A stretch of DNA of 64,000 nucleotides from an uncultured Bacteroidales bacterium (GTDB taxonomy: Bacteria > Bacteroidota > Bacteroidia > Bacteroidales > P3), in contig ONFR01000004.1 in the NCBI GenBank assembly GCA_900317125.1, positions 1 to 64,000 on the forward strand. Direction: 5' to 3'. The first letter of the stretch is position 1; the number at the start of each line of letters is the position of its first letter. Under the pieces are notes generated by a model. The model was not told where the DNA came from, searched no databases, and saw only the letters and a list, made by a program, of their open reading frames with translations. The position numbers and the translations under genes are program-made. Positions 8,911 to 23,052 of this stretch are shown here, in pieces.

Positions 8911-10325
8911 TTCGAAAACATCTTTAGCATCTTGAGTTTCCCCTCCCCTGCTTTACCAGTGTAGGGATGTTCACGAAGCGAGAGGTTGAATCTGTTGCTA
9001 CCCATCAGCACAGTGGAGGGATGGGTGAATTCGCGGAAGCCCCATTCGCCATGGTAGGCACCCATGCCGGAATGCCCTGTGCCATTGAAAGGAACCCCTT
9101 GTACCATAAGATGTATGCATACCTCGTTGATGCATCCTCCCCCATACTGTAGGCTACGCATCACACGGCGGGCCCAACGACGGTTGCGTGTGAAGAGATA
9201 CATGGCCAGAGGATGCTCCCGCTCGGCTATGACATTCATGAGCCAATCCACATCGGCATCTTTGAATGGAACTATCGGCAGCAGCGGACAGAACAGTTCC
9301 TGCTGCACTATTGGGTCATCTATTCCTATAGGATACAGAATTGTTGGGGAATAGCGACGGCTGCTCCTGTCACCTTGGCCTCCCATTACAATGCGGTTGC
9401 GATGACTGTCGGCCAGGGCTACGCAACGGTCATAGGCAGACTCGGTAATCAGTTTGGGGTACGACTCGTTTGTCAGCGGCGAGTCTCCTATCTGTTTGGC
9501 GAAAGCCATCTTCAATTCCCTGACGAAATCCTCAGCCACCTCTTCGGCGACTGCCACTTGGTTGATATTGATGCAGATCTGTCCAGCATTGCATAGCTTG
9601 AAGAAGGCCACTTTGCGTGCAGCATCTTTCAAGTCGGCATCCTTACGCACGACACACCAGTTGCCAGTTTCTCCGCCCAACTCCAATGCCACGGGGGTGA
9701 GATGCTTAGCTGCCTCCGCCATCACATGTTTCCCCACCGCTGGCGAGCCAGTGTAGAATATCTTGTCGAATCGTTGTGCCAGACACATGTCTGCCACATC
9801 GTGTCCGCCATCGACAAGTGTGACATACTCTGGAGGGAACAGCTCGGCGATGAACCGCTTCAGCACTGCCGTACATGCAGCCGATTTGCTGCTGGCCTTG
9901 ATGACAGCAGTGTTGCCACCAGCCAGACTGGCAGTCAGCACGCCGAGAGTGAGAAGGATGGGGAAATTAAAAGGACTGATAATAAGTGTGACACCGTATG
10001 GCATCTTGTACACCTTCGTAACGATGCTTGGAAAACACATCAGGCCACTGTAATGGCATTCAGGACGTGCCCAACGCTTTAGTCCCCGGATAGTCTCATT
10101 AATCTCAGTAATGGTCGGGAGGATGTCGCATAGATAGCCCTCCACTGCACTCCGGCCAAGGTCTTGCTGCAAGGCCTCTTCAAATTCACGCTCATACGCC
10201 AACACCCCATCTTTTAAACGTTTCAGCTGATTTATCCGCCACTTCACGTCAAGGGTCTCCCCTTCACGGAAATAGGTTCGCTGACGTTCAACTATCTGCC
10301 TAATATCTTCACTTGTATAGTTCAT
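8907..10325 (-). CDS. NAD(P)-dependent aldehyde dehydrogenase, class 3-like
   Basis: A 472-aa enzyme that oxidises an aldehyde to a carboxylic acid. The catalytic set is complete: Asn120 in SPFN, general-base Glu215 in LELGG, and nucleophile Cys251 in NAGQIC. It also has the GSPAVGK cofactor loop near 193 and a C-terminal HSGMGAYHGEWGFREFTHP typical of the class 3/fatty-aldehyde branch (AlkH, ALDH3). The length is slightly above the class average. The physiological substrate cannot be read from sequence. It is the first gene of a two-gene unit with the exported protein at 8422. Confidence 0.88.
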   Translation of the reverse strand: MNYTSEDIRQIVERQRTYFREGETLDVKWRINQLKRLKDGVLAYEREFEEALQQDLGRSAVEGYLCDILPTITEINETIRGLKRWARPECHYSGLMCFPSIVTKVYKMPYGVTLIISPFNFPILLTLGVLTASLAGGNTAVIKASSKSAACTAVLKRFIAELFPPEYVTLVDGGHDVADMCLAQRFDKIFYTGSPAVGKHVMAEAAKHLTPVALELGGETGNWCVVRKDADLKDAARKVAFFKLCNAGQICININQVAVAEEVAEDFVRELKMAFAKQIGDSPLTNESYPKLITESAYDRCVALADSHRNRIVMGGQGDRSSRRYSPTILYPIGIDDPIVQQELFCPLLPIVPFKDADVDWLMNVIAEREHPLAMYLFTRNRRWARRVMRSLQYGGGCINEVCIHLMVQGVPFNGTGHSGMGAYHGEWGFREFTHPSTVLMGSNRFNLSLREHPYTGKAGEGKLKMLKMFSK

Positions 10326-18077: not shown

Positions 18078-18866
18078 TTACAATAAGGGCTTTAATAAAA
18101 ATCCTACACATATTGCCACAGTCATGCTTAACAAAGTACCCAACAATACATATTCCGTCAACTTGGTGTCCTTGCTTTCTTTCAAATCACCAAATCTAAA
18201 TATGGATTTTGCCGCCAATAAAAAGCCAACGCCTTCTACACAATTCATTAGAATACATGTCAAAGCAATTATTCGTTCACAATAACCTATCCATGCACCA
18301 GCATTAACGAGGGAGTCACTATCTCTATTCACGAGTGCACCATCTTTCTTTCCGTCATCATGGATTTCATTACGCCAACGCTTGGTCAAAATTGCAATCA
18401 ATATGCCCGCTGGCTTCAAAATAATCATATAGCCAATTACAAACGACCATATACGATTGTTATTAAATAATGAAATACCGCAATAACTAGTTGGCAAATT
18501 CCCATATAGCAACCAAAATAAGTATACCGAAAGGAAAATAAAGAGCAAATGAACCAGTTGATCTATCAAAAAAATAAAGGTTTCGCCCTTTGTCTGTTGG
18601 CACTTCTTCTGGCTGTAGCACCTTGTATACTCCACTTTTGCAAAATCAATTAGCATATGGGTGAACATAATAAAAATTGGCACAAACCAATTATCCCATT
18701 GTCCAAGACACAAATAAGCAATTACTCCATGAATAATTCCATGCAGAAGTAACCACATTATTCCTTCGCCACCTCTCTTGTATTTTCCGACATTGATTGC
18801 ATCAATCTGGAGAAAGAAATCAGCAATAATATGTGCCCCAACAAGCCGGAGTAAAACGTTCATCAT
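18078..18866 (-). CDS. DUF3307 family multi-spanning membrane protein
   Basis: A 262-aa inner-membrane protein. The N-terminus LLRLVGAHIIADFFLQIDAIN and the following GIMWLLLHGIIHGVIAYL and IFIMFTHMLIDFAKVEY match the DUF3307 domain (His and Asp inside membrane helices). Further helices at about 80-115, 130-160, 195-225 and the C-terminus make seven or so in total. Function is unknown. It is translationally coupled to the SatD-family gene, whose TGA overlaps the ATGATG start. I infer that the two proteins work together, with SatD as the soluble partner. Confidence 0.8.
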   Translation of the reverse strand: MMNVLLRLVGAHIIADFFLQIDAINVGKYKRGGEGIMWLLLHGIIHGVIAYLCLGQWDNWFVPIFIMFTHMLIDFAKVEYTRCYSQKKCQQTKGETFIFLIDQLVHLLFIFLSVYLFWLLYGNLPTSYCGISLFNNNRIWSFVIGYMIILKPAGILIAILTKRWRNEIHDDGKKDGALVNRDSDSLVNAGAWIGYCERIIALTCILMNCVEGVGFLLAAKSIFRFGDLKESKDTKLTEYVLLGTLLSMTVAICVGFLLKPLL

Positions 18867-19507
18867 ATCACCATTGAATTTACAACAGTCTCAAACCGGT
18901 TCAAAAAAGTCAGCAGTAAAGGGACTTTCGCCGAGTGATAAAGCCTATTCACTCTTTGGGTCGATATGCTCATTTCTTTGGCGACAATGACACTCTGAGG
19001 GGGAATCAATTCAAAAAAACGATTCGACACATATGCTTGATTTTTGGTCCAGCTTGACACTATATCATCCACAAATGGGATTTCTACCGCCAGTTCTTCA
19101 TTTAAATAGTCCGACTGTGTGATAATCGAAAGACGGGAATTCTTCATTTCATCAAGTTTCCTACCCGAAAGACGGAAAGCAATACCGTCAGAAGTACCCA
19201 CGTTGTCTCCCACATATTCCTCCATTCCGACACCAACAGACAAACGGGCATCCCATAAAAAAGAAGAATGTTCTGGCGTACCACTTATCAAACCGCTTCT
19301 AATCGATAGTGCAACTCTTGCAACGCGTGAAGCATTTGCCACCACCACTTGGAAACCATCACCCCTGAATATATCACTTGCGACTACACCTTCTCCCAAA
19401 GTATGCGATAACAACGACCTCAAGACCGATAACAATTTGGTTCTGTCATCGCCCTCAATTTTTGTAGAGTCTACAATATCACCCGTTATTACTCCAATCA
19501 ATGCCAT
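18863..19507 (-). CDS. SatD-family protein with a cyclase-like N-terminal half and a C-terminal HTH
   Basis: The 214-aa protein starts MALIGVITGDIVDST and continues with RGDGFQVVV, DARLSVGVGMEEYVG and GIAFRLSGRKLDEMK, the SatD pattern (GDI..S, GDxFQ, R.GIG.GE, G.A...AR). Asp10 and Asp50 are placed like the two metal-binding Asp residues of class III nucleotide cyclases. The N-x3-R pair of active cyclases is not clearly kept (Arg replaces Asn). The last 50 residues (SVIVAKEMSISTQRVNRLYH) look like a helix-turn-helix. SatD was named from a streptococcal acid-tolerance locus; its biochemistry is unknown. Operon with DUF3307, short-leader promoter at 19519-19548. Confidence 0.78.
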   Translation of the reverse strand: MALIGVITGDIVDSTKIEGDDRTKLLSVLRSLLSHTLGEGVVASDIFRGDGFQVVVANASRVARVALSIRSGLISGTPEHSSFLWDARLSVGVGMEEYVGDNVGTSDGIAFRLSGRKLDEMKNSRLSIITQSDYLNEELAVEIPFVDDIVSSWTKNQAYVSNRFFELIPPQSVIVAKEMSISTQRVNRLYHSAKVPLLLTFLNRFETVVNSMVI

Positions 19508-19518
19508 AAATTATTTTG

Positions 19519-19548
19519 CAAAAATACATTTTTTTTTACATATATCAA
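19519..19548 (-). promoter_or_regulatory. Promoter for the satD-DUF3307 unit with a very short leader
   Basis: On the minus strand TTG (19546-19548) and TATTTTTG (19519-19526) are 19 bp apart. Transcription would begin about five bases before the ATG at 19507, so the mRNA is almost leaderless. Confidence 0.6.
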
Positions 19549-19651: not shown

Positions 19652-20344
19652 ATGACACAAGATAACAAAAAAACAGACAGCAAGTTCAGTATCCGTTCAT
19701 TCGTCAAGCGATTGGATAAATTCGGTATTAAGACCCACAAAAAAATGCTTAGCGATGCCTTCATCGGAGCCGATTTCTCCGATAGTGCAGTACGATGGAT
19801 GCGTTTTGGCATAGGTTTCTTTTCCGACATCATCCTCTCGTTCAAGTCGTCAGTTCATCTTGACAACTACAAAGGGAACGACCGAATTGTCAATGCCTAC
19901 AAGGATGCCATCAACAACTTTCATCTGCACACCGACCGCAAGAGATACATTATGGCAGGTGTCGACCTACATACGATAGGCGATTTCTATTCCCATACCA
20001 ACTATATCGACCTCTACAGCCTCTATTCCCGTGAAAGGGGTCTCCCGATTGAAAAAAATGCCATTCCAGAGTTTTCCAAGATGATGGACCAGCAAGACTT
20101 TCTCCAGTTCGCCGATGCACAAGGCGGTTTGCGTGCCGGCACTTATGGAGTCATCAGCGACTTGATTGAAAAAATATTCAAAACCAAGCCCAAGGAGGGG
20201 TCCCACACCCTTATGAATCTTGATTCAAACAAATCTATCAACGGGGGTAAGCCTTATGCCCCTGGTGCCTCTTTCACCAAACATGAAGCCAGTGTGGCCG
20301 TAGCCACAACCGAATGCTGCAACCTGCTACAGCGGTTTTTGTGA
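19652..20344 (+). CDS. HET-C / zinc-dependent phospholipase C-like protein
   Basis: The 230-aa product has no signal peptide. Residues 103-122 (GVDLHTIGDFYSHTNYIDLY) closely resemble the core of bacterial HET-C and zinc-dependent PLC proteins, with His107, Asp111, His115 and Asn117 as possible metal ligands. Upstream, LSDAFIGADFSDSAVRWM may form part of the same helical fold. The C-terminus HEASVAVATTECCNLLQRFL is helical. HET-C homologues are linked to incompatibility and effector functions, so a membrane- or lipid-directed role is possible, but this is inference. Its start is divergent from the satD unit. A -7 box TATTTTTG lies about 25 bases upstream. Confidence 0.55.
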   Translation: MTQDNKKTDSKFSIRSFVKRLDKFGIKTHKKMLSDAFIGADFSDSAVRWMRFGIGFFSDIILSFKSSVHLDNYKGNDRIVNAYKDAINNFHLHTDRKRYIMAGVDLHTIGDFYSHTNYIDLYSLYSRERGLPIEKNAIPEFSKMMDQQDFLQFADAQGGLRAGTYGVISDLIEKIFKTKPKEGSHTLMNLDSNKSINGGKPYAPGASFTKHEASVAVATTECCNLLQRFL

Positions 20345-22354: not shown

Positions 22355-22380
22355 CATTGTCAAATAAAAGTATTAATGGG

Positions 22381-22677
22381 ATGAGAATTGTTTCAAAAAA
22401 GACGATAAATCAATATGTTGTAAACAACCCACAGGCGATGAGGCCTCTTGATGACTGGTATAAAAAGACAAAAGAAGCCGACTGGCACAATTTCGCCGAC
22501 ATACGCCGCACTTTCGCTACAGTGTCACAAGTGGGGAACGACCGATATGTGTTTAACATAAAAGGTAACGACTACCGCTTGGTGGTAATCATACTCTTCA
22601 CACCACACACGGTCTACATCCGCTTTATTGGAACACACGATGAATATGACAAAATCAAAGACATTCAAAACATTTGA
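22381..22677 (+). CDS. higB: HigB-type mRNA interferase toxin
   Basis: A 98-aa protein of the HigB_toxin family (PF09907). It begins MRIVSKKTINQYVVNNPQA and continues with LDDWYKKTKEADWHNFADIR, the typical body, then VFNIKGNDYRLVVII and VYIRFIGTHDEYDKI. HigB toxins cleave translated mRNA at the ribosome and are neutralised by HigA. The start at 22381 is chosen because it matches the family N-terminus and lies 20 bases after the predicted transcription start. The antitoxin gene follows after three bases. Toxin-first order is normal for this family. Confidence 0.92.
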   Translation: MRIVSKKTINQYVVNNPQAMRPLDDWYKKTKEADWHNFADIRRTFATVSQVGNDRYVFNIKGNDYRLVVIILFTPHTVYIRFIGTHDEYDKIKDIQNI

Positions 22678-22680
22678 GAT

Positions 22681-23052
22681 ATGGCACATATTAAGAACGA
22701 AGCAGCCTACGAGGCCGCAATGGCAAGAATAGAAGAACTACTTAAAGTGGTCTCGGACGATATGCCGTTGACCGACCCACGCATGGCCGAACTGGATATG
22801 CTTTCTGAACTTGTGGAAGAATACGAAGACCTCAACTATCCGTTCCCTCCGCCAGAGATGATGCTTACCGAGGCAATCAAAGAGAGCCTTCACAGAAAGA
22901 AAATGACCCAACGCGAAGCTGCCGCCCTGCTGGGCATATCTGCACCGCATTTCAGCGAGATTGTGCGCGGCAAGACAGAGCCATCTCTGCCATTAGCACG
23001 TAACATCAGCCGTAAACTTGGCATCCCCGCAGAGGTAGTGCTGGGTGTATAG
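22681..23052 (+). CDS. higA: HigA-type antitoxin, XRE family
   Basis: A 123-aa antitoxin and autorepressor. The N-terminal half is acidic and helical (EAAMARIEELLKVV and the EYEDLNYPFPPP linker), typical of Bacteroidota HigA. The C-terminal half carries a helix-turn-helix (MTQREAAALLGISAPHFSEI) followed by VRGKTEPSLPLARNISRKLGIPAEVVLGV. It binds HigB and represses the operon promoter. It is separated from higB by three bases, so the two are translated from one message. The module lies in the accessory island. Confidence 0.92.
   Translation: MAHIKNEAAYEAAMARIEELLKVVSDDMPLTDPRMAELDMLSELVEEYEDLNYPFPPPEMMLTEAIKESLHRKKMTQREAAALLGISAPHFSEIVRGKTEPSLPLARNISRKLGIPAEVVLGV

Follow-up and report, generated by a model that had tools for sequence, protein, structure and literature searches.

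Two-gene operons that join a small palm enzyme to a membrane effector are known from Panoptes, in which the synthase OptS constantly restrains the toxic effector OptE, which kills in the absence of its synthase (PMC12657218, PMC12657230). In Pycsar, a Guanylate_cyc-type cyclase is accompanied by a PycTM or TIR effector, while the synthase of CBASS is a CD-NTase with a polymerase-beta-like fold. To our knowledge, no member of the SatD family (PF16264) has a tested function. The pair described here, found in a 64,000-nucleotide stretch of DNA from an uncultured Bacteroidales bacterium (the window), joins a palm-fold protein and a membrane partner from previously untested families. The pair itself is new to the searchable literature (5.39 million papers; subscription papers and preprints lie largely outside it), where a single paper, on a jumbo phage genome, names DUF3307 and a single one uses the phrase "SatD family".

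Organisation of the locus

The original prediction described a two-gene unit at positions 18078-19507, with the stop codon of one gene overlapping the start of the next, and this organisation was confirmed. Both open reading frames lie on the minus strand: gene 1 (18863-19507, 214 aa) encodes a SatD-like protein with a palm domain and an HTH-like helical tail, and gene 2 (18078-18866, 262 aa) encodes a membrane protein. The TGA stop codon of gene 1 (18863-18865) is contained in an ATGA overlap with gene 2, which starts at 18866. A Bacteroidota-type -7 promoter box, TATTTTTG, is located at 19519-19526 on the same strand, 19 nt 5' of the gene 1 start codon, and a TAnnTTTG box occurs at an equal distance from gene 1 in a related locus (L184, genome G358). 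In 54 of 82 loci such a box lay no more than 60 nt before gene 1, compared to 6.1 expected from shuffled sequences.

The divergent neighbour (19652-20344, plus strand) has a weak match to VWA7_N (E 0.009) and is kept at this site across the genus of the window, whether the pair is present or not. About 3 kb from the pair, at 22357-23052 on the plus strand, we also noticed a HigB-type toxin (PF09907, E 2e-32) together with an HTH antitoxin gene.

Family assignment and predicted structure of gene 1

The protein encoded by gene 1 in the window gave no match in Pfam, NCBIfam, PADLOC or PHROGs, so its "SatD" name is unsupported by the window sequence alone; PF16264 matched neither this protein, at E values up to 1, nor any other in the window genome. 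Among the 52 aligned members of the gene 1 family, 34 matched PF16264 (best E 2.8e-13), and the family profile in turn retrieved SatD proteins with E values down to 3e-19. The GD and GDxFQ motifs and the C-terminal helices are shared with the SatD family. Judging from these relatives, the name is right at the level of the family only.

A search of the PDB with the gene 1 sequence gave no meaningful match. The AlphaFold model, built with 52 sequences (pLDDT 95.3, pTM 0.92), consists of a palm followed by five helices. The palm, or nucleotidyl-cyclase-fold, domain covers residues ~1-131 (19115-19507, minus strand), with its elements in the order b-a-b-b-a-b-a-b. In Foldseek the GGEEF domain 6eib was ranked first (E 3.8e-5) and the cUMP synthase PycC (7r65) second (E 4.8e-5), with class III adenylyl cyclases also among the matches. 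Alignment with VIA-align gave Z 11.1 to Rv1625c (rmsd 3.1, 146 residues aligned) and Z 10.8 to each of two further structures, a subunit of a type III-B CRISPR effector and a GGDEF domain. The cyclase-like fold that had been expected from the spacing of short motifs was thus recovered when the predicted structure was compared with known folds.

The GD at residues 9-10 and the RGDGF at residues 48-52, on which that expectation was based, are both present, and the aspartate of each is invariant. D10 (codon 19478-19480, minus strand), in the sequence TGDIVDS, and D50 (codon 19358-19360, minus strand), in the RGDGFQ hairpin, are the putative metal ligands. Together with S14 and G49 they are conserved in 52 of 52 close relatives and in 46 of 46 widely diverged, partner-bearing SatD-like proteins, which span Bacteroidota, Fusobacteria, haloarchaea and Proteobacteria. 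Gene 1 therefore shows the palm fold and the two metal aspartates that characterise the palm/nucleotidyl-cyclase superfamily, as indicated by the model, the fold matches and the invariance. Two partnerless homologues carried changed metal aspartates (D10K and D50N in G077; D10E with the second aspartate kept in G043), and in a third, a second copy in G298, both were intact; since the numbers are small, this is a hint and no test.

The N-x3-R pair of class III cyclases was originally reported to be absent, and the aligned positions, 112 and 116, are indeed unconserved in the gene 1 family. The suggestion that its loss speaks for binding rather than making a nucleotide fared less well. The palms of GGDEF, Cas10 and mCpol proteins work without N-x3-R, and since both metal aspartates are invariant here, its loss is a weak argument against catalysis.

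The C-terminal region (residues 153-214; 18866-19051, minus strand) contains helices at 155-166, 172-179, 183-192 and 195-213. Sigma70_r4 was matched by 17 of the 52 family members and other HTH models by further members, whereas the window protein itself gave no HTH family match. The terminal helices in the model, along with the matches in many members, support the HTH proposed earlier. They also fit another role, in which gene 1 would be a nucleotide-sensing DNA-binding regulator that only controls the expression of a transporter or envelope-stress partner, with no product and no conflict role. The promoter directly upstream of gene 1 and the missing N-x3-R pair are in keeping with such a regulator, as is the origin of the Sat name in a Streptococcus mutans operon linked to acid tolerance, as cited in PMC12077213. 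Across the relatives of gene 1, however, the metal aspartates are conserved more strictly than the HTH sequence, which speaks against such a regulator, and we regard this explanation as rather unlikely.

Gene 2 contains an optional DUF3307 domain and a constant C-terminal module

The DUF3307 assignment of gene 2 was well above threshold (PF11750, E 2.6e-16; 60.2 bits, compared to a curated cut-off of 23). The domain covers residues 4-125 (18492-18857, minus strand) and constitutes an optional N-terminal membrane domain. In 53 sequences, H12, D16, Q20, H70, D74, D102, Q103 and H106 were invariant. Among them are three His/Asp pairs with i,i+4 spacing, distributed over three helices, a pattern suggestive of a site for a metal or for protons within the membrane. 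The model of gene 2 is composed entirely of helices (pLDDT 89), and its comparison with solved structures gave no fold match, the top scores being a Foldseek E of 0.34 and a Z of 6.1. A profile-profile comparison of DUF3307 with the YdjM membrane hydrolase (PF04307) by hhalign gave a match below significance (E 0.12, probability 0.5 %), in which the HxxxD positions are nevertheless aligned.

The second part of gene 2 is a C-terminal membrane module of ~75 aa (residues 186-262; 18081-18311, minus strand), marked by G194, E197, R198, K220, R224, Y239, G243 and S247. In the alignment of this module (hereafter the C-module) one E, K and G are invariant and G, R, R, Y and S nearly so; no Pfam model matches it by name. 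According to the positive-inside rule, its charged residues would face the cytoplasm, where the gene 1 protein sits.

The membrane proteins encoded after the SatD genes that had been found with PF16264 were in many cases just 105-115 aa long. We initially took these proteins for short forms of DUF3307, a reading that was abandoned as they resemble gene 2 in its C-terminal third only (profile positions ~160-238), i.e. in the C-module alone, and not in DUF3307. Other SatD genes had partners of 240-250 aa with the same C-terminus and an N-terminus devoid of the DUF3307 His/Asp motifs.

The two genes are coupled

A collection of DUF3307 loci (80 from genomes and 4 viral) was gathered without reference to gene 1, and in all 83 loci that had upstream sequence a gene 1 homologue was found directly upstream, mostly with a 4-base overlap. 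Within 296 Bacteroidota genomes, gene 1 lay directly upstream of 73 of 77 DUF3307 matches. A search of the same genomes with the C-module alignment returned 114 good copies in 104 genomes, and 108 of these copies had a SatD-like gene directly upstream. A SatD-like gene and the C-module were both present in 101 genomes, one only in 7, and neither in 188; the exceptions to adjacency in G164, G176, G281 and G308 are contig ends. The gene-tree distances of gene 1 and gene 2 were correlated with r 0.908, the highest value of 1000 permutations being 0.23. The coupling of the two genes is far beyond chance.

Since 108 of 114 module copies are coupled to SatD, and partners without DUF3307 share the same C-terminus, we define the unit as SatD plus C-module, with DUF3307, present in 77 of the 296 genomes, as an optional part. 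The original prediction of a SatD-DUF3307 pair was thus correct as to a strict partnership with a membrane protein, but it named the wrong constant part, which is the C-module. The survey of genomes that had been proposed as a check points the same way: DUF3307 is nearly always found behind gene 1, while many SatD partners lack DUF3307.

In G104 and G158, intact long DUF3307 proteins (L176, L177) stand beside a ThiF/HesA-type gene with no adjacent SatD-like gene; at another place in its genome, G104 encodes a SatD-like protein accompanied by a separate C-module. Two apparent irregularities were dismissed. The 493-aa open reading frame in L116, suggestive of a gene fusion, is a mechanical lengthening of the frame in a genome rich in GC, with gene 1 separate at 9282-9992, and the longer N-terminus of gene 1 in L048 runs antisense over a neighbouring gene and is not real. 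In Aerococcus (L221:4097-7709), the genes after a ribonuclease/barstar pair encode a SatD-like protein and a DUF975 membrane protein whose acidic tail is long. This neighbour, known from a single Lactobacillales record, is without a C-module, and the two genes may form a related pair in which the partner is a different one.

Two overlapping genes with a minimal partner of 105-115 aa could also constitute a plain toxin-antitoxin system, in which gene 2, by its C-module, would be a membrane toxin, and gene 1 would neutralise it by binding and repress the operon through its HTH, the palm serving as a scaffold. The carriage of the pair on plasmids and prophages, described below, would suit such a system. 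A lead in this direction comes from Streptococcus pyogenes, where satD, although an accessory gene found in 178 of 249 genomes, was scored essential in emm1, emm28 and emm49 Tn-seq strains (PMC11323703). It was the only accessory gene so scored across the Tn-seq strains (PMC11323703), a pattern expected of an antitoxin. We treat this as a lead only, because the Lactobacillales record, that of Aerococcus, has a different neighbour; if a partner of the kind described here were confirmed there, the pair may explain this essential-but-accessory gene. On the other hand, a scaffold needs no invariance of the metal aspartates, and the orphans showed no antitoxin-like asymmetry, partnerless cases being few, about equal on both sides, and in several instances at contig ends. 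A plain toxin-antitoxin system is thus, in our judgement, improbable.

Distribution, mobile carriage and loss

The pair is widespread, being present in about one third of the sampled Bacteroidota genomes as well as in Proteobacteria, Fusobacteria and haloarchaea. The carriers outside Bacteroidota comprise Vibrionales, Alteromonadales, Pseudomonas, Enterobacter, Sphingomonas, Fusobacterium and haloarchaea. On 3.77-kb mobilizable plasmids of Escherichia coli and Klebsiella, among them the natural E. coli plasmid pEC34A, the pair is nearly the sole cargo beyond replication and mobilisation genes, and a 4.4-kb plasmid also bears it. Further carriers are a P4-like satellite that also encodes integrase, excisionase and primase, a lambda-like prophage, where the pair follows the J tail-fibre region, and two other viral contigs. 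Neither gene 1 nor gene 2 matched anything in annotated phage records, and E. coli genome assemblies contained no copy of the Enterobacteriaceae pairs.

On a Sphingomonas plasmid the pair is flanked by a Pycsar cassette on one side and by TIR, UvrD and AAA genes on the other, and on an Enterobacter plasmid it adjoins an OLD-TOPRIM ATPase and a UvrD helicase, as in Gabija. The region L137:2021-9511 of the Sphingomonas insulae plasmid, where Gabija-like, TIR and Pycsar genes and the SatD-DUF3307 pair adjoin, forms a compact defence island. In a comparison of neighbours in Bacteroidota, 241 PADLOC models were matched near the pair and 32 far from it; as many models describe one protein, these counts speak neither for nor against a link with defence genes. 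Many Bacteroidota copies of the pair lie among ordinary genes.

In the genus of the window, an intact gene 2 was present in 2 of 99 genomes. Joint deletions, with three or more different end points, had taken out the bulk of gene 1 and gene 2 together. In four other genomes (G018, G027, G413 and G414; loci L017, L185, L188 and L190), the first 29-60 codons of gene 1 are fused to the last ~30-60 of gene 2, beside the same M13 peptidase gene. These scars are in frame in G018 and G414, and they are decaying. The in-frame open reading frames were considered as functional fusions and rejected as remnants, as S14 is lost in one of them and the sequences drift. Such joint deletions are expected for an accessory unit whose parts are without use apart.

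The frequency of the pair in Bacteroidota, where 105 of 296 genomes had a C-module match, would be natural for a regulator of a transporter or envelope-stress partner. Its presence on tiny plasmids, satellites and prophages, beside known defence genes, and its block-wise loss in the window genus argue against one. The accessory distribution and mobile carriage together suggest a conflict role with phages or plasmids, either in defence or in addiction.

Proposed mechanism

We tentatively favour, with a little less than even confidence, a nucleotide-controlled membrane effector pair, in which the state of gene 1 controls gene 2, with a conflict role suggested. Because of the cyclase fold, the conserved metal sites and the constant charged module, control of the membrane protein by the nucleotide state of gene 1 is the most economical link between the two. 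The palm domain would bind an NTP with Mg2+ and probably make or sense a nucleotide. Its state may then reach, through the nucleotide or through direct contact, the charged and presumably cytoplasmic face of the C-module formed by E197, R198, K220, R224 and Y239, which in turn would set the state of the membrane domain, acting as a pore or, in the case of DUF3307, as an enzyme with a His/Asp metal site. Various N-terminal domains may precede the C-module in the membrane protein, most commonly DUF3307. The HTH tail would be the DNA-binding part, acting at the promoter of the unit itself or on invading DNA. The direction of control could be a switch-on, as for PycC, or a hold-off, as for OptS in Panoptes; we have a slight preference for hold-off, with gene 1 braking the membrane protein, which is the direction that the S. 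pyogenes satD lead favours. The exact unit, SatD plus C-module, is now defined along with its candidate key residues D10, D50, E197, R198, K220 and R224.

A more far-reaching form of this mechanism, which we consider improbable, is that a nucleotide, made or retained by the palm protein without interruption, keeps shut a lethal membrane effector with interchangeable N-termini (DUF3307 and others). The effector would be triggered if the nucleotide or SatD were lost, or if SatD bound foreign DNA. The pair would then stand beside Panoptes as a second and independent example of signalling by inhibition.

Comparison with known systems

With class III cyclases, GGDEF cyclases and the Cas10/Cmr2 palm, gene 1 is alignable by VIA-align at Z 10-11 over 120-150 residues, but the identity in these matches is only 10-18 % and the catalytic helix motif differs. 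The original prediction had likened the pair to Pycsar and CBASS. Neither window protein has a Pfam match of the Guanylate_cyc, PycTM or TIR kind that defines Pycsar, nor was there a Pfam or PADLOC match to the CD-NTases of CBASS, the fold matches of gene 1 being palm domains; membership in either system is accordingly dropped. The resemblance to Pycsar stands: a cyclase-fold protein with two metal aspartates is encoded beside a membrane protein, and a plasmid copy neighbours a Pycsar cassette. The window pair differs from Pycsar in lacking N-x3-R, in its HTH-like tail and in its multi-helix partner of another family.

The mCpol domain of OptS had no Pfam match in the window pair, and the PADLOC copy used (2023) predates Panoptes; Cas10 palms do match the gene 1 fold. 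The partner is not a 2TM-beta effector like OptE, as the gene 2 model is all-helical with no beta-barrel. What the pair shares with Panoptes (OptS/mCpol with OptE/2TM-beta) is the plan of a small palm enzyme and a membrane effector in a two-gene operon. By analogy with these systems, our best reading is that the pair would work like Pycsar or Panoptes while being a member of neither.
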